Shown here piece by piece: positions 5,042 to 44,135 of a stretch of DNA of 44,135 bases. Origin of the DNA: a virus. The stretch's first letter is position 1. Each line of letters opens with the position of its first letter. Under the pieces are notes generated by a model that was not told where the DNA came from, searched no databases, and saw only the letters and a list, made by a program, of their open reading frames with translations. The stretch is taken from IMG/VR virus record IMGVR_UViG_3300025099_000041, positions 1-44,135 of that record; one strand, 5' to 3'. The position numbers were made by a program, and so were the translations under genes.

Positions 5042-6448
5042 ATGGCAGTATCAGCTAAAGATCCGGCGAGTCTTTTAAATAAAGCACTCAACGAAACTAA
5101 TGCGACTAGCGAGTTTAATAAACTCGAATACTATCTAGTTAAGAACGAGGTAGCCCTTTTCCCTAAATGGAATGTTTATGATTCCATGTATGGATCTATA
5201 AAGTGGCAACCTAATATGGGATCAGAACTTCAAGGGTTGACACCAACTCCGAGTCCTGTTCAGCGTAATATATTTGCTCCAGCAAAATTAAGTGATATCC
5301 CTGCAAAAGATATCTATGAAATTGGTGAACGAAATGAATCTGCAAAGCTTGCTTACCACAGGTATGAAAGCACACGTTTTCGTTTTTTAAGCAGTTTTGA
5401 AGCATTTTGGCGTGATCAACTAGCTTACGCACATTCTGACATTGTTCGTCAGATTCAGAATGCAAACAACCAGTTTGTTCGTACACTAATGTACTATCAA
5501 ACACCTGACTTGTTTATTGCTAAAGATGGTGCTGGATTTTTGTCTAGTGCAAATAATCTTGGAACCGGTATTGTAAAAACAGCACAGACTCAAGATGCTA
5601 TTCGTGCAATAGGAAGTGCATCTAATCCAGATGATGATTCTATTGGTGGCTCAAGTGAAAACTTGTCCAAGCAAGGTGGTGAAGTTTTTCGTGCCGCAAT
5701 TGATGGAGGTACTGCTGGTACTAATGCTGCTGATGTACTTAGGTTGAAAGACTTGTATAAAGCTATGCTTGTTTTGCAAGAAGATGTACAAGCACCAACG
5801 TTTGAACGCACATTTGGCGCACCTAAAACTTCTGAAATGATCAAGGGCAAGTATGTTCTTGTTTGTTCTACAGAAGCATGGGCATCTCTATTATGGGATA
5901 CAGACTTAAAAACAAGTAGTGGTGCTAATCTTGCTTCTACCAATCAAGACTACATTAAAGATGGTTTTGCTGGTGATTTGTTTGGCAAGATTACAGTTAA
6001 GTATGATCCGTTTCCACTTCGGTTTTCCGATAATGGTTCATGGGTTCAACCGCAAAGTGTTGTTAACGGTAAAGTAGTTCCTAATCCGAACTATACTAAG
6101 TTCAATGCTTATAATAGTTCTTCTGCTTCTATTGGTTCTAACGAAGTTGCCTTCTTGTGTGGTGCAGATGCGTTTAAGACAATCTCTGTTGGACCACCAC
6201 CGAAAGAATTCGCTGGTAAGAACATCTCTAAGAAGAAGTTGTATGGCATGAACTGGAATGGTCAAATTGACTTGACCGATCAGTTCTTAGTTCCAACTGC
6301 TGATCAAGGTGTAACTCACGCAACTAACTGGGATATGAACGTATACGGTGATTATCTGAAGTTTATCTCACAGACAATTCACGGTGGTATACCTGGTGAT
6401 GCAAGACATTGTTTACCAATTGTTTTCCGTCGCAGACGTACCTCTTAA
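5042..6448 (+). CDS. Major capsid protein
   Basis: 468 aa, directly after the scaffold, preceded by its own sigma-54 promoter and followed by a strong terminator, so it forms a monocistronic, presumably highly expressed unit. The protein is soluble with no signal or membrane segment. The N-terminal part is helical and rich in aromatic residues (WNVYDSMYGSIKW); the centre is a mixed domain with a TVKYDPFPLRFS strand, and the end is basic (VFRRRRTS). Gene order, size and the expression design make it the best capsid candidate. I cannot place it in a named capsid subfamily, though an HK97-type fold is the default expectation. Confidence 0.8.
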   Translation: MAVSAKDPASLLNKALNETNATSEFNKLEYYLVKNEVALFPKWNVYDSMYGSIKWQPNMGSELQGLTPTPSPVQRNIFAPAKLSDIPAKDIYEIGERNESAKLAYHRYESTRFRFLSSFEAFWRDQLAYAHSDIVRQIQNANNQFVRTLMYYQTPDLFIAKDGAGFLSSANNLGTGIVKTAQTQDAIRAIGSASNPDDDSIGGSSENLSKQGGEVFRAAIDGGTAGTNAADVLRLKDLYKAMLVLQEDVQAPTFERTFGAPKTSEMIKGKYVLVCSTEAWASLLWDTDLKTSSGANLASTNQDYIKDGFAGDLFGKITVKYDPFPLRFSDNGSWVQPQSVVNGKVVPNPNYTKFNAYNSSSASIGSNEVAFLCGADAFKTISVGPPPKEFAGKNISKKKLYGMNWNGQIDLTDQFLVPTADQGVTHATNWDMNVYGDYLKFISQTIHGGIPGDARHCLPIVFRRRRTS

Positions 6449-18041: not shown

Positions 18042-19773
18042 TTATGTACAAAGATCTTTTGTAGGCGGCATGAACCTATCGGTGGATGACACACGATTAG
18101 GCGAGAACGAATATAAGTTTGCAAAGAATGTACGCAACAGATTTGGAACACTTGAAGGTGTTAAGAATGCCAAAGATATTTCAAGTGACATAGGTGCGTT
18201 TACGTCTAATCCACCAATACAAGCAATTTATTCAGTCGGTGAATATGTATTTGTATTTTTCAACGGTGGTTGCAAATACAGAAAGCCAAATAATCCAGAC
18301 ACAACTTGGTCTACATTATACAGTTCTGGAACTATGGATAGGTCTGCTGAAATATTTGTACAAGCAGTGCCAGCATCTACACAAAACTTTCTTCGTAAAG
18401 AGACTCAAGTAGCAGGTGCATCATTAGAATTAGACACAGCAACTACAGTACAAAAAACTGTGTCGGCTGTCGTAGTTCAAGACGGTATTAACACGCCAAG
18501 AATTATAGAAATTGCAAACAACGTTGCCGAAGATCGTACTGCTAAAACATACGCACAGTGGTCTGATGGAACAAGAACATCGCGTGAATATATTCCTGTT
18601 GGAAAACAAATGGCGTTTTTTAACAATAAATTATTTGTTGTAAGTAAAGATGGTACAGAAATTTATCACAGCGTTAGTGGTCGTCCATTAGATTTTGTTA
18701 TACCAATAGATACTTCAGGCAATAAAATAAATGCAGACGAAACTATTGGAGGCGCACCAGCAACAGCGTACACTGTAGGTTACAATGAGATAACTGCTTT
18801 AAAGACTTTAAACAGTGACGGTCTATTGGTATCTACAAAAGGTGGATCATACGCAGTCGCTCTTGATTATGCGTTTACCGTTTTTGGTGAACCTTCGTTC
18901 ACCAAGCAGTTTCTATTTACAGCCAACACAATAAATCAAAAATCATTTATTGAACTATTAGGTGACTTTGCATTCATAGATCCAGAAGGATTACGGTCAT
19001 TCAATGCAGTGCAACAATCAAAGAACGAAGCTCGTAACTCAGTGTTCTCGTTAAAGGTAGCAAGATTATTTAAAGACGTTGTACAAACACCAAACAAATG
19101 TGCAGCCATTGCGTTTGATGACTATGCTTTGTTTGCGTGTAACACAATCTACGGTCACGGCATATTAGTCTTTGACATACTTACGCAACAATTTGTTAGC
19201 TTTGATCAATTCACCGATGACAGCAATAGTAACATTGGTGCAGTCATTGAGTTTGCAAAAGTAGAAACAAACAACAGACGAGAACTGTTTGCTATAACAC
19301 ATGGCACAACAACAAGTTCTGGCGATCCAGCATACAAATGCGTTAAGCTTTATGAAGGTACAAACTTTTCAAAAGCTTATTTAGAAACCAGAGCATTCTG
19401 TACGTTTGACACAAGGGTAGAACAGAAGCCTAGAGAACTACGGTTACTCTATAATAAAATACAATTAGCTTCAGCAGTTACAGCGATACAACGAGTGAAC
19501 GATGAAGTCACACCAGATTCGTCAGCAGGTTCACAAACAAAATCAGTTTCGGCACAAGCAACTCCAGTAAAATTTCCAGTAAAACTGCCAGTAAACTGGA
19601 GTGGTCCTAAACGAATACAAAATTTACTATACAATTTTCAAAGTGGTCAACAAGGTTGGAAAATATCATACGCATTACAGTGGACTAATGGAGTCACGCT
19701 ATCCAACATACAGATTGACACACAAGATATTACACCAATGAATCCAATGTTATCACAAGCTTATGTCAGTTAA
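18034..19773 (+). CDS. Tail tube / nozzle-like protein
   Basis: 579 aa, starting with GTG at 18034 (overlapping the adaptor stop). The beginning, SYVQRSFVGGMNLSVDDTRL followed by GENEYKFAKNVRNRFGTLEG, is the pattern of podovirus nozzle or tubular-B-like proteins, which start with a G-G-x-N/V strand and form a beta-propeller tube closing the portal channel. The body is almost entirely beta-strand with aromatic residues (VGEYVFVFFNGG, DYALFACNTIYGHG). The C-terminus ends with an IQIDTQDITPMNPM strand. The family name is inferred from this start and gene order. Confidence 0.65.
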   Translation: MASYVQRSFVGGMNLSVDDTRLGENEYKFAKNVRNRFGTLEGVKNAKDISSDIGAFTSNPPIQAIYSVGEYVFVFFNGGCKYRKPNNPDTTWSTLYSSGTMDRSAEIFVQAVPASTQNFLRKETQVAGASLELDTATTVQKTVSAVVVQDGINTPRIIEIANNVAEDRTAKTYAQWSDGTRTSREYIPVGKQMAFFNNKLFVVSKDGTEIYHSVSGRPLDFVIPIDTSGNKINADETIGGAPATAYTVGYNEITALKTLNSDGLLVSTKGGSYAVALDYAFTVFGEPSFTKQFLFTANTINQKSFIELLGDFAFIDPEGLRSFNAVQQSKNEARNSVFSLKVARLFKDVVQTPNKCAAIAFDDYALFACNTIYGHGILVFDILTQQFVSFDQFTDDSNSNIGAVIEFAKVETNNRRELFAITHGTTTSSGDPAYKCVKLYEGTNFSKAYLETRAFCTFDTRVEQKPRELRLLYNKIQLASAVTAIQRVNDEVTPDSSAGSQTKSVSAQATPVKFPVKLPVNWSGPKRIQNLLYNFQSGQQGWKISYALQWTNGVTLSNIQIDTQDITPMNPMLSQAYVS

Positions 19774-20092
19774 CGTATCACATACAGACTTTACAGATGC
19801 GACAACGCTGTTCGCTGATTTAGCGGCAGCTAATGCCATGCTGGACGGTCTAACAGTACCGGACGCAACTACCAGCACAGATGGAGTTGTAAAGAAAGCA
19901 GCAGCTTCAGCAGATATTGCTACTGTTGGAGGCACATCAGTAGGAGGTGCGACAGCATCTACTGCAATTTCGTTTAATCCTTCGGACGCAAGTCATCCGA
20001 CACGAGATGAAATCAGAGTAGCTTTAATAGAAATGGCATCACAAATGAATCACTTGAAAGCACAACTTAGATCAGCGGGGGTATTAACATAA
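19763..20092 (+). CDS. Small structural protein, hypothetical
   Basis: 109 aa overlapping the tube gene by 11 bases and sharing one base with the next start. It has a helix with Ala/Asp-rich content (LFADLAAANAMLDGL), a Thr/Ser/Ala-rich middle (KKAAASADIATVGG), and a C-terminal helix that could trimerise (RVALIEMASQMNHLKAQLRS). The DGVVKKAAASADI stretch resembles fibre collar segments. Probably a virion component; I do not recognise a family. Confidence 0.65.
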   Translation: MSVNVSHTDFTDATTLFADLAAANAMLDGLTVPDATTSTDGVVKKAAASADIATVGGTSVGGATASTAISFNPSDASHPTRDEIRVALIEMASQMNHLKAQLRSAGVLT

Positions 20093-21192
20093 TGAACTTC
20101 TTTAAAGATTTATTCGACAAGTTAATAGAGACTACTGGAGGAGCAGCAGGAGGTTTGCTTTCACCATTCCAAGGAATGCTCAGTAGTGTTGGTAGTTTGT
20201 TTAGCGAAGATGGTGTACTTAGTATGGACAATCTTGTCCAAGCTGGAACTCTATTTGCACTTGCTGAAGGTCTTAGTAGTAATGACCAGAAAAAATCAGT
20301 TCAAGCATTACGAAAAGAATACGAAAGTTTTTTACCAGCATTCACTCAAGCAAAGATTGCAGCAGGTAAAGCAGAAGCAATGGCAACAGACGATGTAAAT
20401 GCTTTATTAAATTACGGAATAGTAACAGAACGTAATGCAGATGGTCAGGTTACAAAACGTACAAAAGGTCCACTAGGAGGAAGCGAAGGATTAAGATACG
20501 AAGAACTCTACGGAGTTAAGCCACAATACGAAGTTGACGCTAACGGTAACATTGCAATTGATCAAGAGACAGGCAATCCTGTAACTGTAAGAACTGGTAG
20601 ACCGGGACAAATGCAGATTGCTAATGAAGCGCAACGTGAAGAACAACGTAAAGCTGCAATGGCATCAACTCGTACAAGAGTTGATCAGATGGCTGAGTCT
20701 GGTAAACCACTTGCACAACAGTTTAGAAGATTTGAACGAGAACTATCACCAGAAGTTCAAAGAACACAAAGACAAGCAGGTAAAAGCTTTCGTGATTTGT
20801 TAAGAGCGCAAGATCCTACAAAACTTTCTGGATCTGAAATGGCTAATGTAGAACGAGGTCTTGGTCGCATGGGCATTGGTCTTGGTCGTACATCTGAGAT
20901 GGATAAGTACAAAGCTGCAATGACATTCGGTGATGCACTTGCTAACAAGCAACAAAGACTTGGACAGGCTTTAGGTCAGACAGGAAATGTAACAGCAAGC
21001 CTGAGATCAAATGTAAATCCCGGTTCTGTATTTGGTGAAGGTACAACTACAACTCCTTCAATGCCGGGACAAGTCACAGGATTTGGCAACACAGCAGCGA
21101 CAGCACTTGCACCAGTTGCTAATATTATTCAATCAAAAACCGGCGAGATGGGCGGCAAAGAAGCGTTACAAAAAGTAATACTACCTAATTAA
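20092..21192 (+). CDS. Internal virion protein, hypothetical
   Basis: 366 aa. Residues 10-65 contain Gly/Ala-rich, moderately hydrophobic stretches (GGAAGGLLSPFQGML, AGTLFALAEGLSS); the middle is charged and helical with Gln/Arg-rich segments (AQREEQRKAAMASTRTRVDQ), and the end is Gly/Thr/Pro-rich. This layout, just before two more helical proteins and a 2043-residue giant, resembles the internal core (ejection) proteins of podoviruses. No enzymatic motif is seen. Confidence 0.65.
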   Translation: MNFFKDLFDKLIETTGGAAGGLLSPFQGMLSSVGSLFSEDGVLSMDNLVQAGTLFALAEGLSSNDQKKSVQALRKEYESFLPAFTQAKIAAGKAEAMATDDVNALLNYGIVTERNADGQVTKRTKGPLGGSEGLRYEELYGVKPQYEVDANGNIAIDQETGNPVTVRTGRPGQMQIANEAQREEQRKAAMASTRTRVDQMAESGKPLAQQFRRFERELSPEVQRTQRQAGKSFRDLLRAQDPTKLSGSEMANVERGLGRMGIGLGRTSEMDKYKAAMTFGDALANKQQRLGQALGQTGNVTASLRSNVNPGSVFGEGTTTTPSMPGQVTGFGNTAATALAPVANIIQSKTGEMGGKEALQKVILPN

Positions 21193-29085: not shown

Positions 29086-29207
29086 AAAGATAAGCTGGTC
29101 AAGTTTCGTAAACCAAGAAACCGAAACTCATAAACAGATCCGTATTGCTCTCCAACGTCAATAAGAGAGAATCTGACCCAGCTAAAATTTGAGTGTATCG
29201 TAAACAT
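29082..29207 (-). CDS. 41-residue microprotein coupled to its neighbours
   Basis: Starts 26 bases inside the 3' end of the P-loop ATPase gene and ends in an ATGA overlap with the following gene. The product contains NFSWVRFSLIDVGEQYGSV and FRFLGLRNLTSLSL. Aromatic and beta-like, with no long hydrophobic span. Coupling on both sides and filling of an otherwise empty gap make it a credible gene. Function unknown. Confidence 0.55.
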   Translation of the reverse strand: MFTIHSNFSWVRFSLIDVGEQYGSVYEFRFLGLRNLTSLSL

Positions 29208-30420
29208 CAGTGACACGAGCTTTGAACCAACCACCATTGTTGTCTACTTGTTCAGTAGTAACTAGGAATTCAAGAACTTGATCCAGTTCTTGTTTGGTAA
29301 TTTCAGATACAAATTTAAGCCAAAGCTTTTTGTACCTTACGCCTGAGTCAGCGTCAATGATATACCGTAGTATATGCTTCGTGATTTCACCGATAGGATT
29401 TCTACCTACAGTATTGAAAGCTTCATGCATCTTGTGTTCTGTAATAGTCAACAACTTGAATGCACGTTGCATATCGTTTAAAGAGATCTCCATGCTTTTA
29501 TGATCAGCAAAATGTATAAGCATGGCAGTCTTCAACAAGTGTACATTCTTTCTGCCATAATAATTATCTAACCGTGGATCTTTGTTTACTCGCTTGGAGT
29601 ATAGTTCACCAGACTCATAAAGTTCTTTGTGCCATTCCTGCGCTTCCTTTGATAGAGACACTTCTCCGCAAATGTCATGTAGATTGTACAGTGTATCTAT
29701 GATGTCTTTTCTGCACTGGCGTTGTTGATCTGTAAGACCGGGAAATTGTCTAAAGAATCTTGGAGCATGACCGAACACAACGATAACACGAGATGTAAAT
29801 CCCTGAGAAATAATCTTATCGCTGAAAGCTTCACGAATAAATGAAGGCGTTGTACCTCCAAGCATGGTCACACAAATATTTGTAATGTCATCTGACCCTT
29901 GATGCTTACTCTTGTAATGATAACTTCGTGAATCATAAAACTGATTCAACATATTAACCATGTCTTCAGAGTTCTTCCTAAACAATACACCAAGTTCCTC
30001 AACCATAAAACAAATTGAATGATGAGATCTTTTCTTGGTTGCTGTGCCTCCAAGTCTCTTGTCTGGAATCTTAAACGTTCTGATACAATCATCACGCATG
30101 AACCTGAGTAAAGACTCTTGTGTAGTTGTGTCTGCACCACAAGGAAACATTGGAACCATGTTGTTCTTTTCAAGATTCGGTTCCATCAACTTCTCGTTCT
30201 TGATTACATCAGCTACTTGTGAGATCACGCGAGACTTACCCGCAGCAGGTGGACCAACCAACAGTGTAAAGATGTTGGGGTATATTGCCATTGAGTCTGG
30301 ATACAACCAGACCCTCCGTTGTAATGCGGCACTAATTAAACTATAGAAACTCCAATCTATAAACAGGTCAGGTGATTCTAAATCTTTAAGATAGTGCCTC
30401 CACTTCTCAAGATTAGTCAT
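29182..30420 (-). CDS. P-loop ATPase, probable replicative helicase (DUF3987-like)
   Basis: 412 aa. Walker A GPPAAGKS at residues 56-63, a Walker B-like strand ICFMVEELGVLF near 135-147, and a later Thr/Gly motif (VTMLGGTTPSFIREAF) followed by an arginine-containing GFTSRVIVVFG. This layout matches the DUF3987/primase-helicase-like ATPases that replace DnaB in some phages. The C-terminal third is helical with a winged-helix-like DADSGVRYKKLWLKF region. It lies in one operon with DNA polymerase. No primase domain is visible here, so priming must come from elsewhere. Confidence 0.75.
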   Translation of the reverse strand: MTNLEKWRHYLKDLESPDLFIDWSFYSLISAALQRRVWLYPDSMAIYPNIFTLLVGPPAAGKSRVISQVADVIKNEKLMEPNLEKNNMVPMFPCGADTTTQESLLRFMRDDCIRTFKIPDKRLGGTATKKRSHHSICFMVEELGVLFRKNSEDMVNMLNQFYDSRSYHYKSKHQGSDDITNICVTMLGGTTPSFIREAFSDKIISQGFTSRVIVVFGHAPRFFRQFPGLTDQQRQCRKDIIDTLYNLHDICGEVSLSKEAQEWHKELYESGELYSKRVNKDPRLDNYYGRKNVHLLKTAMLIHFADHKSMEISLNDMQRAFKLLTITEHKMHEAFNTVGRNPIGEITKHILRYIIDADSGVRYKKLWLKFVSEITKQELDQVLEFLVTTEQVDNNGGWFKARVTDVYDTLKF

Positions 30421-30598
30421 CTAACGTATCAATTAATTTTGCTATGATTGTGTATTGCTCAAAGGTTAGAGCAGGTAATACTTTACCGTTGAGTGTAATA
30501 ACTAAGATCGGTTCATTTTCATCACCGTCAAAAAAGTTATCAAGAGCGACACTTATATTTGTGTCTCCGACGTTGTAGCTTACTATTGGTTTAGACAT
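30413..30598 (-). CDS. Small acidic hypothetical protein
   Basis: 61 aa, overlapping the polymerase gene by 8 bases upstream and the ATPase gene by 8 downstream. Beta-strand-rich start (SYNVGDTNISVALDNFFDGD) then ILVITLNGKVLPALTFEQY and an acidic C-terminal helix. No family recognised. Position between polymerase and helicase suggests a replication accessory. Confidence 0.65.
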   Translation of the reverse strand: MSKPIVSYNVGDTNISVALDNFFDGDENEPILVITLNGKVLPALTFEQYTIIAKLIDTLDD

Positions 30599-32957
30599 CT
30601 ATCATTTCCTTCCAGTTATCCCCGATCATAGCTTCTGATCTCATACAGAAACGCTCGCCACGGGGAGAAATCATTTCACGGTTTAAGTGCTTCATTGCTT
30701 CTTGGGCAACGAATTCCGAATGCTCTGGAGCGCATTGGAGCAGGACACTATCATGGTTGTTCTGGAGTACGTCAACTCCTAAATCCTGAAGATCTTTTCT
30801 GTTCTGTAATTCAACGAATGCTAGATTAGTAATGCATCCTACAGTTGACTGAGGCACAAAGGCATACGCTTCCTTGTACATAGTCTCGTCAATGAATCCA
30901 GTGAAGTATCTTGGATAACCAAATAAATTTTTAAGTATCTTTGTACTCTTTAGTTTTTCAATAGTCTCATTGTGCCATTGATTTATCTCAGGAAATAGTT
31001 TGTGATAAGTCGCAAGGAATCTTTTAGCTTCCTTGTTCTCAAGTGCTATTGCACCCTGAGATTTCTGCAACATATTAGTTCTAAACGTTGGTGCTTTCAT
31101 ACCATAGTTACTTGCATGACATACCATCTTTGCCATGAAGTAATAACGCTTGTCTGCTGACCAGTTGTCACTGTCTTTAATCACAGCGTTGAGATCATCC
31201 CAACCTTTTATATTCTTTAGTTCACTTATAGGTGCTTCACAAAAATCGTCTACACTTCTGCCTAGTTGTTCTGCCCAGACATCTGGAAACAATCGCAACG
31301 CAACAAACACATGAGATTTAATTCCCTCAAGAAATAAAGTTCTAAAGTTTCCCGGTACACACAAGTAACCTACAATCATTGCTTCTGCACCAGCTTGGTC
31401 AGCCTGAACAAGAACCTTACCTTTATCTGCAATGAATAGTTTGCGAAGTTTCTTTGGTATGTTCTGTATGTTAGTACCCCAGCGTCCCAGTAATTTTCTA
31501 CTAGCCAATCGAAACGTTGATGTACCTGCCAAGTTGTAAGCAGTTGTTATCCTGTCTGCCACAGGCTTGGTATACAAACCTTCGTATGGTGTATACTTTA
31601 GTTGACCAGACTCTTTTGCAATGGATCTGTATTTAAGTATGACAGATATAGATGGTAGATTATGTTTGAGTCTGTGCTGTAGCAAAGTCTTTTCATTGGT
31701 TAGATCCTTTGAAGGTTTCTTTAACTTCATATCATTATAAAGATACTCAGAAACTTGTTTAGGACTATTCGGATTTAGATCTCTACCAACCAACAAGCTT
31801 AACATTCTGCGTAGTTGTGCCTTGTACCTTTCGTTACGCATCAAGATTGCTTTCTTCTCTTCAGTGTTTATACGTAAGCCTTGACACATGGCAGTCAAGT
31901 ATGGAACTACCATAGAGTTAGCCTGTTCAATTGAACCTCCAGCTTTCATCTTACCAGCAAGAGCTTCGATTGATGGCTTGATTAGTGCCATCGTCAAAAC
32001 ATCTTTAACGTTATAATGATACAGTTGATCGAACTGCTCTGAAGTTTGCGGATTATAACAACCTTCGTTTTTATGGTATGGTTGATCTGTATAAAGAGAT
32101 ATGCAATGTCCAAGAGACTTCTCAACTTCAGGAAACAATCTGTGGTGAGCCAGCATTGTGTCGTAAACTTTCTTAGGTGCAGGGATTCCATAGCGATACG
32201 CAATAACAAACAAATCAAAGAGTGCGTTGTGAATTACAACTGTGTTATCCCGTAGTGCAATTGCCAATGCCCGTAAAATTTGCGGAGTCTCATCATAGTG
32301 ATAGTAGTTTATGCGTAGCATTGGTACACAATAACCTTTCCCTCCAAAAGAAAATCCAAAGCAAGTCATCTCAAGATTCGGATTCGTTTCAATATCAAAG
32401 AACATATCTTGATCCTTAGTGTTAGTTAAGATGTCTATGATCTCATCTGCTTTAGGATAAATACAATGCTCACCAGCTTGTGGATTAGGTGGAGTCTTTA
32501 GATAACCAACTGCCTTGGCAACATCACGTTGCATCCAGTGTCTCCAGTTAGATCGTTTAGTTTTACCATGTCTCTCAGTCTCGTCATACTCATACTCAGT
32601 ATCATTGGCTAATGGATTGAAGTATGCCTTGCGATCAATTGCATTCTGTGGTGCGAAGGTAGCAATGTAAGCTCGACCATGAACAATCCAAGGACATCCA
32701 CGTTGTCCACCTAGTCTACTGTTCTTGAAAGTTCTTAAAGCCTTCTCGCCCAACAACAAAATTACTTTTGTGTCGGGGAGAAAGCCTTCGCCCAATGTAT
32801 TGAGCAACCGTATGTCGCAAGATTGTCTTGGAATGCTTAACGCATTCTGAAACAAGTGACCCGCATAGCCTGAGATTAACTCACACTTGTCGAATCTACT
32901 TGGACTTTCCAGTATTACTGTTAGACCGCTGTACGGAAGACTTGGTTTGTGTCTCAC
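30591..32957 (-). CDS. DNA polymerase, family A, with UDG-like N-terminal domain
   Basis: 788 aa. Residues about 1-150 look like a uracil-DNA glycosylase fold: ESPSRFDKCELISGYAGHLF, then VILLLGEKALRTF and RGCPWIVHG; the usual HPS-type motif is changed to FAPQNA, so activity is doubtful. A DnaQ-like 3'-5' exonuclease follows (FFDIETNP about 187, IHNALFDLF, YNVKDVL). The polymerase has motif A VQADQAGAEAM (about 519), motif B KMVCHASNYGMK (about 612) and motif C NNHDSVLLQC (about 734). It copies the phage genome. It starts with GTG and overlaps the preceding gene by 62 bases, so the exact start is unsure. Confidence 0.9.
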   Translation of the reverse strand: MRHKPSLPYSGLTVILESPSRFDKCELISGYAGHLFQNALSIPRQSCDIRLLNTLGEGFLPDTKVILLLGEKALRTFKNSRLGGQRGCPWIVHGRAYIATFAPQNAIDRKAYFNPLANDTEYEYDETERHGKTKRSNWRHWMQRDVAKAVGYLKTPPNPQAGEHCIYPKADEIIDILTNTKDQDMFFDIETNPNLEMTCFGFSFGGKGYCVPMLRINYYHYDETPQILRALAIALRDNTVVIHNALFDLFVIAYRYGIPAPKKVYDTMLAHHRLFPEVEKSLGHCISLYTDQPYHKNEGCYNPQTSEQFDQLYHYNVKDVLTMALIKPSIEALAGKMKAGGSIEQANSMVVPYLTAMCQGLRINTEEKKAILMRNERYKAQLRRMLSLLVGRDLNPNSPKQVSEYLYNDMKLKKPSKDLTNEKTLLQHRLKHNLPSISVILKYRSIAKESGQLKYTPYEGLYTKPVADRITTAYNLAGTSTFRLASRKLLGRWGTNIQNIPKKLRKLFIADKGKVLVQADQAGAEAMIVGYLCVPGNFRTLFLEGIKSHVFVALRLFPDVWAEQLGRSVDDFCEAPISELKNIKGWDDLNAVIKDSDNWSADKRYYFMAKMVCHASNYGMKAPTFRTNMLQKSQGAIALENKEAKRFLATYHKLFPEINQWHNETIEKLKSTKILKNLFGYPRYFTGFIDETMYKEAYAFVPQSTVGCITNLAFVELQNRKDLQDLGVDVLQNNHDSVLLQCAPEHSEFVAQEAMKHLNREMISPRGERFCMRSEAMIGDNWKEMIDV

Positions 32958-33487: not shown

Positions 33488-33991
33488 TTAGACTATGTCG
33501 TGTTCTGGTGCTGCACTAATCAGTTCCCCGGTGGAATATGCATTGAAGGTCACTGGATCACCCGTTGCTGGGTCTACCATTGCTTCTCCTTCTGCATTCT
33601 TCCTAACCATCTTCTCTGTCTTGATGGTTGCGTAGGCAGCTTTACCTTTATAGACATCACCATTAGGCTCGACAGTACCCCAAGGGTTTGACTCGTCTGA
33701 ACAGTTGATCTCGAAAGGTAAATCAAGAACACGGTGCAAACGCTTGATGCGTATTGCAGCCTTCTCAATGAACACTAGGTACTCACGGAATTGCAATCCA
33801 GCAATCCGCACATCTCCCAAGTCAGGATCTTCTACTGACTCAGGTGCAACGATCTCCCATGACAAAACAACCATAGGGTTGCCAGCTTGAGAGGTACGAG
33901 TTTCTACATCCGCAACGCGGATAGTGTAGGTGTTTGAAGGTAAGAATGGCCGAGCATTCTCCTTCACGTCATTTAGGTTTATAGTAGGCAT
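33488..33991 (-). CDS. DUF669-like single-stranded DNA-binding protein
   Basis: 167 aa starting at ATG 33991, which is preceded by GTGAGGA as a ribosome site; a longer frame to 34039 adds 16 residues but ignores that site. The N-terminus MPTINLNDVKENARPFLPSN, followed by a beta-rich core (TYTIRVADVETRTSQAGNPM, VVLSWEIVAP) is the DUF669-type pattern of phage ssDNA-binding proteins found next to Sak4-like recombinases. It would coat single strands in replication and annealing. Acidic-type SSB tail is not obvious (ends APEHDIV). Confidence 0.7.
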   Translation of the reverse strand: MPTINLNDVKENARPFLPSNTYTIRVADVETRTSQAGNPMVVLSWEIVAPESVEDPDLGDVRIAGLQFREYLVFIEKAAIRIKRLHRVLDLPFEINCSDESNPWGTVEPNGDVYKGKAAYATIKTEKMVRKNAEGEAMVDPATGDPVTFNAYSTGELISAAPEHDIV

Positions 33992-33995
33992 TATA

Positions 33996-34121
33996 CTAGT
34001 TATCCTCACTTCGTGTGAGAAATTGTGACAAGCGATCAATGCAGGGACAAACCTCGATTCCCGCGAGAAAACCTGTCTGCGTCTTAATAGCAGTATGTAC
34101 TTGTCTTAAATTATTAAGCAT
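33996..34121 (-). CDS. 41-residue microprotein between Sak4-like and SSB-like genes
   Basis: Starts at an ATG overlapping the stop of the Sak4-like gene and stops 4 bases before the SSB-like ATG; the SSB ribosome site lies inside its 3' end. Product begins MLNNLRQVHTAIKTQTGFL and contains two Cys (VCPCIDRL). Soluble, no known motif. It fills a gap of more than 100 bases in an otherwise gap-free operon, which supports it. Confidence 0.5.
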   Translation of the reverse strand: MLNNLRQVHTAIKTQTGFLAGIEVCPCIDRLSQFLTRSEDN

Positions 34122-34758
34122 AGTATTTATCTGATGCTTTGATTACTTCGTTGAGATCATTAGGTATGTAGAGATCTTTAAACATACCAAGAGGAGTCTT
34201 CGCTGATGTCACTCCATCGGAGTTAGTCTGAAAACAATACTCAATAGCGTCTTCTGTTCGACGTACTTCAGTAAAGAGAACCATCAATAGTTCCTTCTCG
34301 ATGCAGCCTTCGTGAACTCTGCCTTGAACCTTGATGCGTCGAGTATTGTACTCACCGCCTGTTGGTTGTGTGACACGCACGATCTCATCAATCGCTGTGA
34401 AGATTACTACAGCTTTCTCATTCTTAACTCTGTCAAGAATGTCACGAATAGACTTGTTGTAATATGTCCAGACATCATAACCTTTGTACATCTTTGCTGC
34501 TGTGCTAAATAGTATCTCACAATACTTTGTGAATGATTCAATCACTACAACTTCTGACTCCTTGATTGCTTTATCAATTGCCTTCTCAACATCTGGTAGT
34601 TTGTTTACCGATATAACATTGAAGTTCTTAGCTTCCTTGAATGGGAAACCTTTACGCTCAAGGTCAATGATAGTTGTCTTGTCTGGCGGCAAGTTGCGAA
34701 GTGATGTTGATTTGCCAGTTCCGCTTGAGCCAACAACACCTATAATGGGTTTATTCAT
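34114..34758 (-). CDS. Sak4-like RecA-type ATPase (recombinase)
   Basis: 214 aa. Walker A GVVGSSGTGKST (residues 7-18), a short VVVIES Walker B near 71-76, and a compact RecA-fold domain without further extensions, as in Sak4-type single-strand annealing or exchange proteins. It sits between a RecB-like nuclease and an SSB-like protein, the classical phage recombination trio. The gene overlaps the DUF1599-like gene by 4 bases. It would pair single strands at ends or breaks during replication. Confidence 0.75.
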   Translation of the reverse strand: MNKPIIGVVGSSGTGKSTSLRNLPPDKTTIIDLERKGFPFKEAKNFNVISVNKLPDVEKAIDKAIKESEVVVIESFTKYCEILFSTAAKMYKGYDVWTYYNKSIRDILDRVKNEKAVVIFTAIDEIVRVTQPTGGEYNTRRIKVQGRVHEGCIEKELLMVLFTEVRRTEDAIEYCFQTNSDGVTSAKTPLGMFKDLYIPNDLNEVIKASDKYYA

Positions 34759-35150
34759 ATTACTGTTATTTCTATGTGTTTCGTTGTTTTCTTTTCAACG
34801 TTTGGCCAAGTGCCTTCAATAAGCATTTGACCGATCAATCCATAGTTTGCTATGTCTTGAAAAGTATCTTTAAGTGACTCGTGATTTGGTTCATTACCAG
34901 ATTCAAGAATGTTCTTGAGCCTGAAGATCTTATCAACAAGTCGTGTCTTCAATCCCATCAAGCCTTCAGTTGAAATGTTCATGGGTCCGTAATCAAGTTG
35001 CTTTGAATCAAGTAACCTCACACAATCAACAGCGTTGTAAAATGCTGTAAGACCTGCGAGTGTGTTCAACTCAAAGTTGAGTTCTGCTTGTGCTTCTTCA
35101 CCGTCCATAACGTTTAGTGTTTTCTTTACTTCTCTCTCGAAACTATGCAT
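34755..35150 (-). CDS. DUF1599/Nmad1-like protein
   Basis: 131 aa, alpha-helical. DYGPMNISTEGLMGLKTRL, then DKIFRLKNIL and NHESLKDTFQDIANYGLIGQ match the pattern I know from DUF1599, the nucleotide-modification-associated domain 1, related in layout to all-alpha NTP pyrophosphatases (K-x-R-L-x-x-L ... E-S-x-x-D-x-x-x-D-x-x-x-Y). It might act on nucleotides or modified DNA precursors. No partner modification enzyme is visible in the window. It overlaps both neighbours by a few bases. Confidence 0.6.
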   Translation of the reverse strand: MHSFEREVKKTLNVMDGEEAQAELNFELNTLAGLTAFYNAVDCVRLLDSKQLDYGPMNISTEGLMGLKTRLVDKIFRLKNILESGNEPNHESLKDTFQDIANYGLIGQMLIEGTWPNVEKKTTKHIEITVI

Positions 35151-36048
35151 TGAAGTTTAATGGGTTATATAATTTAGTATAAAAGTCGTTCTCAATCACA
35201 GCTTCACCAAAGTCGCCAGCGTTACAGATTCTTGCAAACTTGCACATACCAAACTTGGTTTCACAACAATTGAAATTGGGTAGGAAATAATTCTTATCTT
35301 CCTTGATGTTCTTGGTTAGCAGCTCAACAAATTTGACAATGGTTTGTGTCAAGTGCTGTTCAAAGTATGCCAACTTATCATCTGAGTAGTCAAGTATCGG
35401 ACTGCGTTGGAACTTATTCTTGCCTGTTCTTGATAAGAATATGCCATTGATAACTGCTTGGTAATTTCTGTCAGGAAAAAGCTTACGCATAACTAAAGTG
35501 TAGAGCATGATCTGTGTAGACATTCTGTATGTATCCAAGTATCTGTCTACTGCTGTGACTGCGGTTGATTTGTGATCGCATATAACATTCTGACCAAAGT
35601 ATGTGCCAATGAAATCTATTGTACCGCAAATGATAACGTCAATAAACCCGTTGGTGTAGAAAGGAAAACCAAACTTCATCTCTAACAACGCCTTGCCTTC
35701 ATGCTTCTCAACTTTAAGACCATCAACATCTTGATAAGTATCGAAGTATTGTGTGAGACAATTGGCCAAGTGTCCTGCGGTTCTCCAATCAGAGTCAGGA
35801 ATTACAATCTCAGGATTAGAATAGTGAGTGAGTCCTTCATTCATTGCCTCTGCTCTATCACCAGTCTCATAGAAAGTTTCTAGTGCTTTGTGGTACGCAG
35901 TACCGTATTCCATCTTGTGATTCATGTAACTACTACGCAATCCACGGACTGTAGTGTAGTAGAATTTCAAGTCACAGGCAGACTCCTTGTATGCAGATGC
36001 ATCAATGCGGAGAATGTAACGATCGTCAGCTTTTTCTAGTTTAATCAA
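35143..36048 (-). CDS. RecB/Cas4-like PD-(D/E)XK exonuclease with Fe-S cysteines
   Basis: 301 aa. GTAYH (49-53), GTIDF (142-146, Asp145), CDHKS (157-161, Asp158/Lys160) and the following Q-x-x-x-Y (Gln179, Tyr183) are the RecB nuclease motifs. Cys25 near the N-terminus and a C-terminal CCETKFGMCKFARIC cluster (261-275) look like the four-cysteine iron-sulfur site of AddB/Cas4-type enzymes. It probably resects ends for the Sak4-like recombinase. Start is TTG at 36048, overlapping the preceding stop, with AAGGGG upstream as ribosome site. Confidence 0.8.
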   Translation of the reverse strand: MIKLEKADDRYILRIDASAYKESACDLKFYYTTVRGLRSSYMNHKMEYGTAYHKALETFYETGDRAEAMNEGLTHYSNPEIVIPDSDWRTAGHLANCLTQYFDTYQDVDGLKVEKHEGKALLEMKFGFPFYTNGFIDVIICGTIDFIGTYFGQNVICDHKSTAVTAVDRYLDTYRMSTQIMLYTLVMRKLFPDRNYQAVINGIFLSRTGKNKFQRSPILDYSDDKLAYFEQHLTQTIVKFVELLTKNIKEDKNYFLPNFNCCETKFGMCKFARICNAGDFGEAVIENDFYTKLYNPLNFNA

Positions 36049-36205: not shown

Positions 36206-36294
36206 TTAATTGATGAGAAAATTGCTGCGGCCAAACCAGAAACAAACCATAACATAAAAAGAATTGCAGCGATATTGAATAGTATCTCAATCAT
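36202..36294 (-). CDS. 30-residue single-span membrane microprotein
   Basis: MIEILFNIAAILFMLWFVSG then LAAAIFSSIK: one strong hydrophobic helix with a basic C-terminus. ATGA overlaps on both sides (36291-36294 and 36202-36205) tie it into the operon, so chance is unlikely. It could be a membrane effector or anchor of the recombination/replication complex. Confidence 0.6.
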   Translation of the reverse strand: MIEILFNIAAILFMLWFVSGLAAAIFSSIK

Positions 36295-36809
36295 TTCATT
36301 ATCCTGACGTATGAATCAGTGATGTCTACTTCTGAGTCTTCAGTGACTAGATTGTAAATGAATTCCCTGTCAGCTTCATTGACTGATACATTACGCTCAA
36401 ACAATTCTGACTCTGGTGCTGTCTTATACCATGTCTCTAAATCATTCTTCCATGTGATAGAATCATTGTATTCATAGTCTAAATCTTTAGAAACTAAAGT
36501 ATTTCTTGGTGTATCTTTAAAGTATATTATGACTCCATCGTCTGTCTTGCGTATGGCAGTCTTTGTTCTGAGTATTGTATACTTCTCTTCGTTGAAGTTA
36601 TCCACAATGAACTTGAATCCATCATTGAGCTTAACGTATAGAGTGTTTGGAGTGTAGCCTGTTTGTTGTGCATTGACGTATGCATCTTTACCAGACTCTA
36701 TCAATCTATCTAGTATTGGTTGTATCTGCTGTGCAGATGACGGACAATAACTAGATCTTCTTGACTGAGTTTTCTTTAGTTGGTTTATTGTAACGTTTTC
36801 GATTTGCAT
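36291..36809 (-). CDS. Hypothetical protein, second gene of the sigma-54-driven operon
   Basis: 172 aa. Ser/Gln-rich start (KKTQSRRSSYCPSSAQQIQP), then a central beta domain (TLYVKLNDGFKFIVDNFNE; GVIIYFKDTP) and an acidic C-terminus (NLVTEDSEVDITDSYVRIMK). No membrane segment or catalytic motif. Overlaps the preceding gene by 25 bases. Unknown function. Confidence 0.7.
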   Translation of the reverse strand: MQIENVTINQLKKTQSRRSSYCPSSAQQIQPILDRLIESGKDAYVNAQQTGYTPNTLYVKLNDGFKFIVDNFNEEKYTILRTKTAIRKTDDGVIIYFKDTPRNTLVSKDLDYEYNDSITWKNDLETWYKTAPESELFERNVSVNEADREFIYNLVTEDSEVDITDSYVRIMK

Positions 36810-37186
36810 TGATCCATGTAGTTTTCTGCTGTTTCTTTATTACCCTTCGCGAACTCTGCTTGTGCCAGTAGAAATAGTTTTCTTGCTGACAATTCCTTGA
36901 GACTTGGAGTCCATTCATTAGCTTCGTCTTGTGTTAGTAATGTACCATCAGGATGCTTGCGATATAGCTCGTCTTTATAACGTTCTAGTTCTGATGTTGG
37001 TAAGTTCTTTGGTAAAGAGTTCTTAACCTTTGCTCTGATCCTTGTCTGTACTTGCTGGTTTACTAATGCAAGTAATGTCTTGTCTCCGTATGATTCAACA
37101 ACTTCGTCAAGACTTTCAAAAACTGGGGTAAAAAAACTGAACCCCTTAAAATCTCCATCGATGAATTTTTCTTTCTTATAAGTCAT
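36785..37186 (-). CDS. Hypothetical protein, first gene of the sigma-54-driven operon
   Basis: 133 aa, helical, charged. It contains FKGFSFFTPVFESLDEVVES, then a helix-rich middle (LLALVNQQVQTRIRAKVKNS) and YRKHPDGTLLTQDEANEW. It begins about 16 bases after the predicted sigma-54 transcription start, without a clear ribosome site. Function unknown; as promoter-proximal gene it should be the best expressed of the operon. Confidence 0.7.
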   Translation of the reverse strand: MTYKKEKFIDGDFKGFSFFTPVFESLDEVVESYGDKTLLALVNQQVQTRIRAKVKNSLPKNLPTSELERYKDELYRKHPDGTLLTQDEANEWTPSLKELSARKLFLLAQAEFAKGNKETAENYMDQCKSKTLQ

Positions 37187-37213
37187 ATTAAAAAGTAACT
37201 TGGTTTATATATA

Positions 37214-37229
37214 AGCATTCTTCGTGCCA
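37214..37229 (-). promoter_or_regulatory. Sigma-54 promoter of the replication/recombination operon
   Basis: On the minus strand TGGCACGAAGAATGCT: seven-base -24 element perfect, GG-N10-GC spacing exact, -12 element ATGC instead of TTGC. It lies between the stop of the activator gene (37250) and the ATG at 37186. The predicted start is near 37203. Confidence 0.75.
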
Positions 37230-37249
37230 ACTTTTTTGGATGGGTGATG

Positions 37250-37981
37250 TTAATAGATGATTAATTCTCCTAGTGTCTTATAACGTGCGACTATACTGTG
37301 TAGTTCTCTATAGTTGCCAAGGAGTTTAGTCTTAGACAAAATTGTTTTCGTAAGTTCTTCTGGTTTAGGGATTTGCATAGCTTTCAAATAGAGTACGATG
37401 TCTTGTGGTCTGTCCCTGAGTGGTGATGTCTTGATAATGAAGGTTGAGATTCTGAAGTATAGATCCAATCTAAACCTACCTTCCTCAACTTCCTTGCGTA
37501 AATCTTTGTTGGTTGAGAATACAAAACGACAAGTTGCATTGTACTCCGAAGCGTCTCCTATCTTATTATACTTCTTGTATTGTATAAACCTAAGTAGCTT
37601 GGGTTGTAAATGATATGGTAGTTCTCCTATCTCATCTAAAAAAAGCGTTCCCTTGTGTGCTTGTTGCACAAATCCTGTGGCATCTCTTGTTGCTCCAGTA
37701 AATGAACCCTTCAAGTGTCCGAAAAGTAACGATTCAAATAGATCTTCTTGCAAGGTTGTTACGTTTACTGGTACGAAATTTGTTGCGTGTCTTGAGTCTG
37801 ATGATGGTTGTCTATTGCCATGCAATATTTGAGCCATAGTTTCCTTGCCTGTGCCAGACTCCCCCATCACTAGGACAGGGGAATCGTGGCATGACAAGAT
37901 ATTCGCATGATAAATTTGGTTTACCATGAACTTATCTTCTGTGATTAGACTATTCAATGTCTTCAATCTCTTCGATTTCAA
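37250..37981 (-). CDS. Sigma-54-dependent transcription activator, AAA+ domain only
   Basis: 243 aa, an enhancer-binding-protein AAA+ domain: Walker A GESGTGKE (40-47), the sigma-54 contact loop GSFTGA (92-97, normally GAFTGA), Walker B TLFLDEIGELP (112-122), sensor I STNKD (156-160), arginine fingers in FRLDLYFR (Arg171, Arg177) and sensor II GNYREL (222-227). All residues needed to hydrolyse ATP and remodel RpoN-polymerase are present. Receiver/PAS domains and the C-terminal Fis-type HTH are absent; the chain ends 16 residues after sensor II. It should work from solution, like FlgR-type activators without DNA-binding. It ends an early leftward unit; three sigma-54 promoters are in this genome. 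Confidence 0.92.
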   Translation of the reverse strand: MKSKRLKTLNSLITEDKFMVNQIYHANILSCHDSPVLVMGESGTGKETMAQILHGNRQPSSDSRHATNFVPVNVTTLQEDLFESLLFGHLKGSFTGATRDATGFVQQAHKGTLFLDEIGELPYHLQPKLLRFIQYKKYNKIGDASEYNATCRFVFSTNKDLRKEVEEGRFRLDLYFRISTFIIKTSPLRDRPQDIVLYLKAMQIPKPEELTKTILSKTKLLGNYRELHSIVARYKTLGELIIY

Positions 37982-40059: not shown

Positions 40060-40084
40060 AAAAAAAGAGGGGCTTTCGCCCCTC
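40060..40084 (-). terminator. Rho-independent terminator/attenuator
   Basis: Minus strand GAGGGGC-GAAA-GCCCCTC followed by TTTTTTT. It sits 4 bases after the stop of the gene at 40089-40676 and directly before the next ATG, so the rest of the early block depends on read-through. Confidence 0.9.
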
Positions 40085-40088
40085 ATGT

Positions 40089-40676
40089 TTATGCGTATAG
40101 TTCGTTTGCTTCCTTGTCTAGTGTTTCAATCTGTGATTGTAGCTTAGTTGCCGCATCACCCTTGGCTTTTGATTTCTTAGATTCAAGCTCGCGTCGCTCA
40201 TTGAATATTTCCAACATTCTTGCGCCCCTTGCTTCTGATGCTGCAAGCTTACGCTTTGCCGCTGCCACTCCGTCTCCGGTTGCCCGTTGTTTGAATGCTT
40301 CACCTTCGAGGGATTTAGCAACATAGTTTAGTTTCTCATCTTCTGAGAACTTATCTTCTCTTTTGCCCATGACAGACATCTTTTGCACTGTCTTATACTT
40401 GCCATTGTTTAGACGGTATAAGCAAGCCTCACGAATCCACTCATCAGGTTGCAAGTCTATGAGGTTGGCTCCGTGTAATGCGTTTAACCAGTCTTGAATG
40501 TCAGAGAGATCAATGTTGGATGCTCCGTTGTATTCATGTGCCCAGTATTTGAACTCCGTTTTTCCCTTGGTTGACTCTAGTAGTGAAAGGTTTAACTCTG
40601 CTACTACTTCATTCTTTTCGTTTTCAAGGCCTATTCTAGCCTTGCCGTTTTCATTTGATATGATTTTGGTTTTCAT
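40089..40676 (-). CDS. Hypothetical early protein
   Basis: 195 aa from ATG 40676; a TTG start at 40727 would add 17 residues. N-terminal beta domain (KTKIISNENGKARIGLENEK; VAELNLSLLES), a central WLNALHGANLIDLQPDEWIR segment, and a long charged C-terminal coiled coil (AAKRKLAASEARGARMLEIF onward). Transcribed alone from a sigma-70-type promoter and closed by its own terminator. No family recognised. Confidence 0.65.
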   Translation of the reverse strand: MKTKIISNENGKARIGLENEKNEVVAELNLSLLESTKGKTEFKYWAHEYNGASNIDLSDIQDWLNALHGANLIDLQPDEWIREACLYRLNNGKYKTVQKMSVMGKREDKFSEDEKLNYVAKSLEGEAFKQRATGDGVAAAKRKLAASEARGARMLEIFNERRELESKKSKAKGDAATKLQSQIETLDKEANELYA

Positions 40677-40766
40677 AATTGGTTTAATAACCGAAGAAAG
40701 TTTGCCCTTATCTTTTAAAAAGGTCAAGGTTTATTTTTTGGAAATGTTGAGTTGCTTGTGGTTGGT

Positions 40767-40912
40767 TGATTTATTGATTTATGGTTAATTTGTTAACATG
40801 GGGTACCCCTTGTACCTTAGTATATATATAAAGATATATATATTTTTTTCTATTTCTGTCAATGCATCAACGGGGGGCCAAGTTGATATGTTAACCATAA
40901 ATCAATAAATCA
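40767..40912. repeat. 22-bp perfect inverted repeat around an AT-rich core (candidate origin or operator)
   Basis: Arms 40767-40788 and 40891-40912 are exact reverse complements over 22 bp (TGATTTATTGATTTATGG plus TTAA, itself with two TTGATTTAT-like units). The 102-base centre holds a 10-bp palindrome GGGGTACCCC (40800-40809), a TATATA-rich tract (about 40820-40848), a promoter and a G-run GGGGGGCCA. No gene covers 40728-40980. Confidence 0.8.
40835..40862 (-). promoter_or_regulatory. Sigma-70-type promoter for the early gene at 40676
   Basis: Minus strand: perfect -35 TTGACA (40857-40862), 16-base spacer, -10 TATATA (40835-40840). Transcription would begin near 40828, inside the inverted repeat loop, and run into the gene starting at 40676. 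Arms of the repeat flank it, a natural operator layout. Confidence 0.6.
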
Positions 40913-41601: not shown

Positions 41602-41617
41602 TGGTTTATGGCTTGCG
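41602..41617 (+). promoter_or_regulatory. Possible weak sigma-54 promoter for the candidate RNA
   Basis: TGGTTTATGGCTTGCG has GG and GC exactly 10 bases apart with a perfect TTGC, but CACG of the -24 box is lost. The predicted start (about 41628) coincides with the 5' base of the hairpin at 41627. The overall match is too weak to be sure. Confidence 0.35.
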
Positions 41618-41624
41618 TTTCTCT

Positions 41625-41745
41625 GGACAGCCCGATAGGGAATGAGGAGGAACGACGATCCCTCGGGCTGTATCTAACTAATACTCGAAGAGACTCGTAA
41701 GAGCGTGACTGAAAGGAACAATTAGTTAGTTACATGATTTTTTTT
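41625..41745 (+). ncRNA. Candidate structured noncoding RNA
   Basis: First element: ACAGCCCG (41627-41634) pairs with CGGGCTGT (41664-41671), and AGGGA (41637-41641) with TCCCT (41659-41663), enclosing a 17-base purine loop with AGGAGG. Second element: CTAACTAAT (41674-41682) pairs with ATTAGTTAG (41721-41729), enclosing two tandem mini-hairpins CTC-GAA-GAG and CTC-GTAA-GAG, the latter a GNRA loop. A run of eight T follows at 41738-41745. No gene of any length fits 41541-41819. Five GGA motifs, several in loops, hint at binding of a CsrA-type protein, which is speculative. No known RNA family recognised. Confidence 0.5.
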
Positions 41746-42148: not shown

Positions 42149-42150
42149 GT

Positions 42151-42182
42151 ACCCCTAGGGGTTTGAAGGGGGAGGGGGGCCA
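42151..42182. repeat. Palindrome ACCCCTAGGGGT and G-rich tract
   Basis: Perfect 12-bp palindrome at 42151-42162 followed by GAAGGGGGAGGGGGGCCA. The nonamer GGGGGGCCA (42174-42182) recurs at 40872-40880 in the inverted-repeat region. G-runs stand out in this AT-rich DNA. The rest of 42183-42272 shows nothing else I can name. Confidence 0.6.
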
Positions 42183-42272
42183 GAAGCAGCGGTCCTACTG
42201 GACTATAACCACGTGTGAAAAAATGACCTCAAAAACTCTATGAGAAACAGAAAACTTTATTTTATAAAATCT

Positions 42273-42288
42273 TGGCACGATCATTGCT
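42273..42288 (+). promoter_or_regulatory. Sigma-54 promoter of the large right-end gene
   Basis: TGGCACGATCATTGCT fits TGGCACG-N4-TTGCW at all defined positions, with exact GG-N10-GC spacing. The ten bases TGGCACGATC are identical to the capsid promoter. Start is expected near 42299, leaving a leader of about 80 bases, as for the capsid gene. Confidence 0.85.
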
Positions 42289-42378: not shown

Positions 42379-44135
42379 ATGTCTGGACAAGATAACTCAG
42401 TAGAAAATTTCGCACAAGAACCTCTAGCGGAGGGTCCATTAATAAAATACACACCGGGAGGCACTGCTGCTGGTCGTGCGTTAGACAGTGGATTACCACC
42501 TGCTAGAGCGCAACTTGGTGGTGGTGAATTTTGGGGGCAACTCGTTCAACCGGGAAACTTCAACCTAGACAACACAGGTGGAGGCAACACAGGTGGAGGA
42601 GGATCTGTAGATGATGGAGGATTAACAGACGAACAAACAGGTGCAATTATAGACGACGAAAATAAATATTTAGATACTCTCGGACCAGTTGACTACAAAC
42701 CAGTTGATTGGCAGTTTAATCCAGATTTACTACAACAGGTTGAAAATTATCAAGGTACAAAATTTTTTCCTGAAGAAGCTTCTGGAGGAGCTTATGGTTG
42801 GGGTACGTCTGGTCCAATAGTTGAAGGTCCAGATCAAGAACCATCTACTGGGAATAAAAATTTTAGAACCTATCTAAATTCTGGAGGCACAACAGATGAG
42901 CAAGGCCGTTATGTAGCAGCAGGAGCTAGACTACCAGAATGGGCGTATCAATATCCTAATTGGTCTAAAACTGTGAGTTTTGGTGGAGATCTTCCATCAA
43001 CAGGAGAAATACTATTTCCTAAAATAAGTGAATGGATGGCAGGTAATCAAGGTAAAACAACAGAAGATTATCACAAAGCAAGAGACTTTCATTTTTACAA
43101 ACAAAAATACTACAACGAAAATAACAAATCAGCGATCAATGCGTTGACAGGAATGCTTTCTGAGAGTGAGAAATTTATTGATGCAGCATTAGGGCAAAGA
43201 ACCGCAGATCAAAGACCGTTACCAGAAGGTTATGCAAAAAATCCTATATACAGATATGCAAATAAGTTTAAAGAAATTCTAGACGGTGTATCAGATGAAC
43301 AGATTAAATGGTGGGAAACAAGAGGAATTGCAGCAGATCCGTCAGGTAAAGAACCATTTGGTCCAAGATTTACACCAGATAATGTACAAACATTAATGAA
43401 AAATGCAGGGACTTCATTGTCTAATGCAATAAAAATACTTCAGGGTAAAGATGAAGAAGTACAAGCACTCAAAAAAGCAGATCCACAAAAATACGGACAA
43501 TTACAAGTATTAGCATTAATAAACACAGCAGCACTGGTAAATGCATACGGTCCTTATGGGTTATTGCCGGGAGGTATAATGACAGGGGCAAGTGACATAA
43601 TGTCAGCAATGAATGGTGCATTAGCAGAACGCCCAGAGTTAAAAGGAAATCCAATACAAGATGTTGTACATTCTACAATGTGGATTGGAGGTAAAGCAGC
43701 ACAACTTGCATACAACAAAACACTAGGAGCAATATTACCTAAAACTCAGATAAAAGATAAAGCATCAATAGTAGGTTCAGCAAAGAAAAATTTAAAATTA
43801 GAAGACTGGGGAAAACAACTTGATTCACCAGAACTTACTGGATTAACGATTACGTTTGATCCAAATATGAAAAAACCAGTAAGAGAAGGGCCACAACGAG
43901 AATTTAAAACTCTATCACCGCTAGATCCAACTAAAGTTGATGTACCACCTACAACATTTATACAGCCCGGTAAACCAGTAAACACGGGTGCTGATGATAA
44001 AAGAGAAGATATAAGAGATGATGAAAGACGCATAGAAACAGGAGGCGGTGGACCTATAACAAGAGTACCATCAGACAACGTGCCAATTCCAAGTGATCCA
44101 CGAGACACTCCACCTAGAACAACTGGACCTTTAGG
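42379..44135 (+). CDS. Large protein of unknown function, 3'-truncated (probable virion protein)
   Basis: Open from ATG 42379 (frame closed upstream by a stop at 42340) to the window end, 585 codons without a stop. The N-terminus is disordered and Gly-rich (NLDNTGGGNTGGGG). The middle is helical and aromatic (YHKARDFHFYKQKYYN; QIKWWETRGI), with a mildly hydrophobic Ala/Gly stretch (LVNAYGPYGLLPGGIMTGAS). The last 100 residues are Pro/Asp/Arg-rich and disordered. It is driven by a capsid-like sigma-54 promoter, which suggests a late, abundant virion protein, perhaps an internal or tail component. No family is recognised; no enzyme motif is seen. Confidence 0.8.
   Translation, partial: MSGQDNSVENFAQEPLAEGPLIKYTPGGTAAGRALDSGLPPARAQLGGGEFWGQLVQPGNFNLDNTGGGNTGGGGSVDDGGLTDEQTGAIIDDENKYLDTLGPVDYKPVDWQFNPDLLQQVENYQGTKFFPEEASGGAYGWGTSGPIVEGPDQEPSTGNKNFRTYLNSGGTTDEQGRYVAAGARLPEWAYQYPNWSKTVSFGGDLPSTGEILFPKISEWMAGNQGKTTEDYHKARDFHFYKQKYYNENNKSAINALTGMLSESEKFIDAALGQRTADQRPLPEGYAKNPIYRYANKFKEILDGVSDEQIKWWETRGIAADPSGKEPFGPRFTPDNVQTLMKNAGTSLSNAIKILQGKDEEVQALKKADPQKYGQLQVLALINTAALVNAYGPYGLLPGGIMTGASDIMSAMNGALAERPELKGNPIQDVVHSTMWIGGKAAQLAYNKTLGAILPKTQIKDKASIVGSAKKNLKLEDWGKQLDSPELTGLTITFDPNMKKPVREGPQREFKTLSPLDPTKVDVPPTTFIQPGKPVNTGADDKREDIRDDERRIETGGGGPITRVPSDNVPIPSDPRDTPPRTTGPL

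Follow-up and report, generated by a model that had tools for sequence, protein, structure and literature searches.

A conserved sigma-54 promoter behind the gene of a minimal AAA+ activator: a candidate switch from early to later transcription in a phage family

Most phage transcription switches examined to date rely on an imported polymerase or sigma factor, on re-aiming the sigma-70 polymerase or on preventing termination. The sigma-54 polymerase is unusual in that it forms stable closed complexes, which await an ATP-driven activator, and a phage supplying only this activator would gain a sharp, nearly all-or-none switch from one small gene. In phage T7, the early gene 1 encodes an RNA polymerase and the class II promoters lie downstream. 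The locus described here resembles this arrangement, as an early gene encodes the putative transcription switch and the next promoter class follows; however, T7 brings its own polymerase, whereas this locus would rely on the polymerase and the sigma-54 of the host. The T4 proteins AsiA and MotA re-aim the sigma-70 polymerase, and P7 of phage Xp10 acts as an inhibitor, of the sigma-54 polymerase included (PMC7403470). These proteins redirect the host RNA polymerase, as we propose for our locus, but none of them is an AAA+ sigma-54 activator.

On the side of the activator, the closest described protein is DctD250, the AAA+ domain of DctD alone, which activates many diverse sigma-54 promoters without an enhancer (PMC3844500). 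Like the phage protein, DctD250 consists of the AAA+ domain only and has neither a sensor nor a DNA-binding domain, but it is a laboratory truncation, whereas the phage family carries the reduced form naturally and coupled to phage promoters. The AAA+ domains (PF00158) of PspF and NtrC1/FleQ share fold and motifs with the phage activator; unlike it, these host regulators have DNA-binding domains, many of them also sensors, and answer host signals. A search of the open-access literature, with few subscription journals covered, yielded no description of a sigma-54 activator that a phage encodes and that acts on phage promoters, which is weak evidence of absence. Each component is known, and what would be new, as far as the open-access literature goes, is their combination into an early-to-later phage switch built on host sigma-54 and a minimal activator.

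The sigma-54 site and the activator gene

We analysed a viral contig of 44,135 nucleotides (IMG/VR record IMGVR_UViG_3300025099_000041), referred to as the window. Its early and replication side consists of the minus-strand genes between around 41540 and 29182, and its structural side of the plus-strand genes. The gap 37187-37249 spans exactly the interval from the stop of the activator ORF to the start of the following ORF (37250-37981 and 36785-37186, both on the minus strand), and its minus strand contains TTGGCACGAAGAATGCTT. We propose, with a probability of about 0.83, that a site in this gap serves as first output promoter in a sigma-54 switch encoded by the phage, whose activator opens three phage promoters. 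The site and the genes behind it are:

37229-37214, minus strand: predicted sigma-54 promoter core TGGCACGAAGAATGCT, identified by weight matrix and in 37 of 37 distinct homologous gaps; serves the leftward replication operon
36785-37186, minus strand: first gene of the sigma-54-driven operon, 133 amino acids, no assigned function, conserved in all relatives
36291-36809, minus strand: second gene of this operon, 172 amino acids, no assigned function, conserved
35143-36048, minus strand: PD-(D/E)XK exonuclease (PF12705 1.8e-16, phrog_1218)
34755-35150, minus strand: DUF1599 nucleotide-modification-associated protein (PF07659 6e-7)
34114-34758, minus strand: Sak4-like ssDNA annealing protein (phrog_2872 1.7e-30)
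33488-34039, minus strand: probable single-strand DNA-binding protein (weak match, phrog_7778 3.7e-4)
30591-32957, minus strand: family A DNA polymerase (PF00476 4.5e-32, phrog_17 8.9e-67)
29182-30420, minus strand: primase/helicase, last gene of the leftward operon (phrog_14296 1.2e-39)

The core has the GG-N10-GC layout, with GG at 37228-37227 and GC at 37216-37215, and agrees with the TGGCAC/TTGC-type consensus. Its predicted transcription start at around 37203, some 12 nt past the GC as expected for such promoters, is the one named in a first-pass annotation of the window. In a weight-matrix scan of both strands, the site scores 18.1 and ranks third in the window. Two perfect sites, at 4933 and 42273, score higher (20.3 each), and the fourth-ranked match, at 14.7, is clearly weaker. 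Among 400 Markov-generated genomes of the same composition, scores of at least 18.13 occurred 0.05 times per genome, and no genome (0/400) carried three such sites. The chance expectation for such a site on the minus strand of the gap is 2.9e-5. The first-pass claim that a sigma-54 promoter stands right after the activator gene and heads the replication operon is therefore borne out by the scan, by the chance expectation and by the homologous gaps described below.

The activator gene, which is indeed the last gene before the replication promoter, is annotated as follows:

37250-37957, minus strand: phage-encoded sigma-54 activator, AAA+ domain only (PF00158), about 235 amino acids from TTG 37957

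The position 37981 in the first-pass annotation marks only the reach of the longest ORF. The protein itself probably starts at TTG 37957, with ATG 37927 as an alternative, because the nearest distinct relative (L004, 91%) has stops within the window's N-terminal stretch up to 37981. The conserved LITEDKFM stretch and the overlap with the upstream stop also point to TTG 37957.

The activator matches PF00158 with an E-value of 6e-54 (182.7 bits, cut-off 20.2), and the solved structures that come nearest in sequence and in fold are those of the AAA+ domains of FleQ, NtrC1 and PspF; the structure model has a mean pLDDT of 83. In the window, the motifs read GESGTGKE (Walker A), GTLFLDEI (Walker B), FRLDLYFR (arginine finger region, FRxDLYxR) and GNYREL (sensor II), and all four are kept across the family (A4/A5). 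The sigma-54-contacting GAFTGA-type loop is GSFTGA in the window and follows the family pattern G-[SA]-[FY]-T-G-A, in which the first G, the T and the second G are invariant. A C-terminal helix-turn-helix is absent, as the family proteins stop at the AAA+ lid, 0-15 residues past the match. An N-terminal sensor or receiver domain is absent as well, with at most a few dozen residues preceding the AAA+ domain. By its sequence, the activator is thus reduced to the AAA+ domain and differs from the classical three-domain NtrC-type enhancer-binding protein. With neither sensor nor DNA-binding domain, it is probably active once made and works from solution, as judged from this architecture and from DctD250. 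No RpoN is encoded in the seven phage records searched, which means that the host would have to provide the sigma factor. An integrase was likewise absent from these seven records.

Conservation and position of the promoter

IMG/VR was queried for relatives of the activator, of the 5042 gene and of the DNA polymerase, which yielded a large family, mostly marine according to our reading of the sample identifiers. No cultured relatives were found, and matches to the activator among 'phages' entries were mostly bacterial-looking contigs filed as phage. The activator and its next gene are present at 68 loci with 37 distinct gaps, and every one of these gaps carries a sigma-54 site. The score is at least 15.5 in 36 gaps, a value that no shuffled gap reached, and 12.5 in the remaining one, which still reads TGGCATAGTTCCTGCT. 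TGGCA and TGCT are invariant in all 37 gaps, whereas the spacer varies; invariant elements around a drifting spacer are the footprint expected of a -24/-12 promoter. A second set comprised 43 loci that include the polymerase and reach at least 6.6 kb further upstream; some are overlapping pieces of the same contig. All 43 have exactly one site in the upstream stretch, down to around 42% activator identity, and in 42 of them it directly follows the activator, with L126 as the sole exception. Another distant relative, L034, also has the site close behind the activator, at a distance of about 30 bases.

In L126/L147, the activator and the promoter lie three genes apart, with the promoter still immediately ahead of the next gene in the replication operon; matching sites are also found before the 5042 homologue and before the first rightward genes. 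This layout indicates that the promoter belongs to the operon and that it usually lies close to the activator without having to do so. A mechanism based on being next in line is not supported: this promoter stays with its operon across three genes, and the two other promoters of the window probably answer to the same activator from several kb away. The L126/L147 contig was binned with a Deltaproteobacteria MAG encoding RpoN (5e-66); as evidence for a host, this loose bin link is weak, and the contig is a distant relative of the window.

The first-pass annotation had also read the -12 element of the replication promoter as ATGC and the other two sites as perfect, which is accurate, and had suggested that the weaker element might grade the order of response. 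The variable base is T in 21, C in 13, A in two and G in one of the 37 gaps, and ATGC is specific to a clade, the 91% relative L004 having TTGC. The window's pattern is inverted in an 80% clade, where CTGC occurs in the rightward promoter and the replication promoter has a perfect site. Moreover, the three promoters rank differently in different genomes. With a free base and shifting ranks, a conserved response order coded in the -12 element is not supported; a strain-specific effect of this base is possible.

Whole-contig scans placed three sites at homologous positions in the well-covered relatives, namely after the activator, after ORF 3794 and before ORF 5042, and before the first rightward gene. 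At the thresholds used, G007 has only two of them. The weakest conserved sites, in G010 and G013, score around 14, and single genomes have a few further matches of 14.7-17.7 at positions that are not conserved; the case for the weaker sites thus rests on their conserved position and not on their score. On the structural side of the window, the relevant features are:

4933-4948, plus strand: second predicted sigma-54 promoter TGGCACGATCTTTGCT, just past the stop of ORF 3794-4927 and ahead of 5042-6448
5042-6448, plus strand: gene behind the second sigma-54 promoter, conserved, lies past the terminase
42273-42288, plus strand: third predicted sigma-54 promoter TGGCACGATCATTGCT, start of the rightward (late) unit
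42379-44133, plus strand: first long gene of the rightward unit, extends past the contig end; upstream of the terminase in relatives

The site at 4933 has counterparts at the homologous position in G004, G006, G007, G008, G009, G010, G013 and L147, and the one at 42273 in G004, G006, G008, G009, G010 and G013. We suspect, from position only, that 5042-6448 encodes the major capsid protein; the product has no PHROG, Pfam or PDB match and its structure model is poor (mean pLDDT 33). Upstream of the three promoters of the window, a search for a shared enhancer gave no common word longer than in shuffles.

Several further observations stand apart from the three promoters. A G-rich stretch and TGAAAAAATGACC at 42150-42245, upstream of the rightward sigma-54 promoter, are conserved even in G013 and might represent a packaging site or a regulatory element. 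For the terminase large subunit (470-1975, plus strand), the nearest annotated phages are Akkermansia phages at around 30-33% identity, and ORF 1932-3680 has no match among the 'phages' entries. The human gut phage MT121960 (L006) encodes an unannotated sigma-54 activator of a similar AAA+-only type at 19770-20684, among DNA metabolism genes; no consensus sigma-54 sites were found in this record.

Supply of the activator, proposed mechanism and alternatives

Two predicted features lie in the early block upstream of the activator:

40835-40862, minus strand: predicted sigma-70-type early promoter TTGACA-N16-TATATA, its -35 box aligned in five genomes
40067-40084, minus strand: intrinsic terminator, a strong hairpin directly after early gene 40089-40727

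A predicted TTGACA/TATATA-type promoter is common to five genomes, with early gene 40089-40727 as the first gene downstream of it, and hairpins equivalent to the terminator are present in G004, G006, G007 and G013. The unit ending in the activator begins about 15 bases beyond the terminator. Based on the conserved promoter, we propose that the housekeeping (sigma-70) polymerase of the host transcribes the leftward early block, including the activator. The activator would accumulate and, active once made, act from solution on host sigma-54 polymerase parked in closed complexes. ATP hydrolysis would then open the replication promoter (37229-37214) and also the two that serve the structural genes (4933 and 42273). 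The most likely logic of this arrangement is a relay in which early genes lead to the activator and the activator to the promoter, as in the first-pass annotation, but simple read-through is an incomplete account of it, as a conserved terminator precedes the activator unit. The activator must be supplied by read-through, by antitermination or from a promoter within gene 40089-40727, and its supply past this terminator may be the true timer. What the sequences show are the sites, the activator domain, their conservation and the gene content of the operon; dependence on sigma-54, activation by this protein, the timing and a host with RpoN are inferred from them.

The strongest competing explanation is that the replication genes are transcribed mainly by read-through of the early transcript and that the sigma-54 promoter is only a booster. 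The genes are tightly packed, and in the window no terminator was found between the activator and the promoter or onwards to the next gene, so that the operon may receive some read-through in addition. However, the -24/-12 elements are invariant in all 37 gaps while the spacer drifts, the conserved terminator after gene 40089-40727 should limit the flow from upstream, and in L126 the promoter stays with the operon and not with the activator. We therefore regard a mere booster role as unlikely, although it deserves serious consideration.

Alternatively, a separate DNA-binding partner might direct the activator to phage promoters and spare those of the host. In one clade (L048, L079, L084, L087, L093, L110, L133, L134 and others), a TAGAAGAT-like element lies exactly 16 nt upstream of the TGG in promoters of all three classes, and such words occur 18 times in G008 against 5.3 expected, a hint of an additional DNA-binding component; moreover, several conserved early proteins have no assigned function. 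Such a partner nevertheless seems improbable, as the element is absent from the window's clade, where shared upstream words are no longer than in shuffles, and no DNA-binding domain was found in the early proteins.

The promoters could also answer host sigma-54 activators, for example those of nitrogen control, so that the phage would read the nutrition of its host and its own protein would be secondary. The sites are standard, such that other sigma-54 activators could presumably open them, and an untethered activator is promiscuous (PMC3844500). On the other hand, every relative with enough sequence has its own, sensorless activator, and the three promoters of the window share no upstream words beyond shuffle level, which makes control by the host very improbable. 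A chance sigma-54-like sequence beside an unrelated AAA+ protein, although a single site of such score arises about once per 20 genomes, is refuted by the comparative data, that is, by the 37 of 37 gaps and the three homologous sites across a divergent family.

Returning to the phage-encoded switch, we conclude from these sequence comparisons that the phages probably use the host sigma-54 pathway, which is rarely exploited, to pass from early to later expression. A wider version, to which we give even odds, is that throughout the family all post-early transcription runs via host sigma-54 as a three-promoter regulon, that the minimal, untethered activator also switches on host sigma-54 genes, and that multiplication is confined to hosts with RpoN. 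A phage that supplies only the activator would make host rpoN a predicted determinant of host range. The family also offers a natural, minimal sigma-54 activator for biochemistry.

Lastly, a noncoding element with two stems lies at 41610-41745 (plus strand; fold -40.9 kcal/mol). It has no Rfam match, is conserved in L011, L012, L016, L018, L041 and L118, and is possibly a phage small RNA. The first stem is altered on both of its sides in L118 and in L011; in L118 it goes from ACAGCCCG/CGGGCTGT to ACCGACCG/CGGTCGGT.
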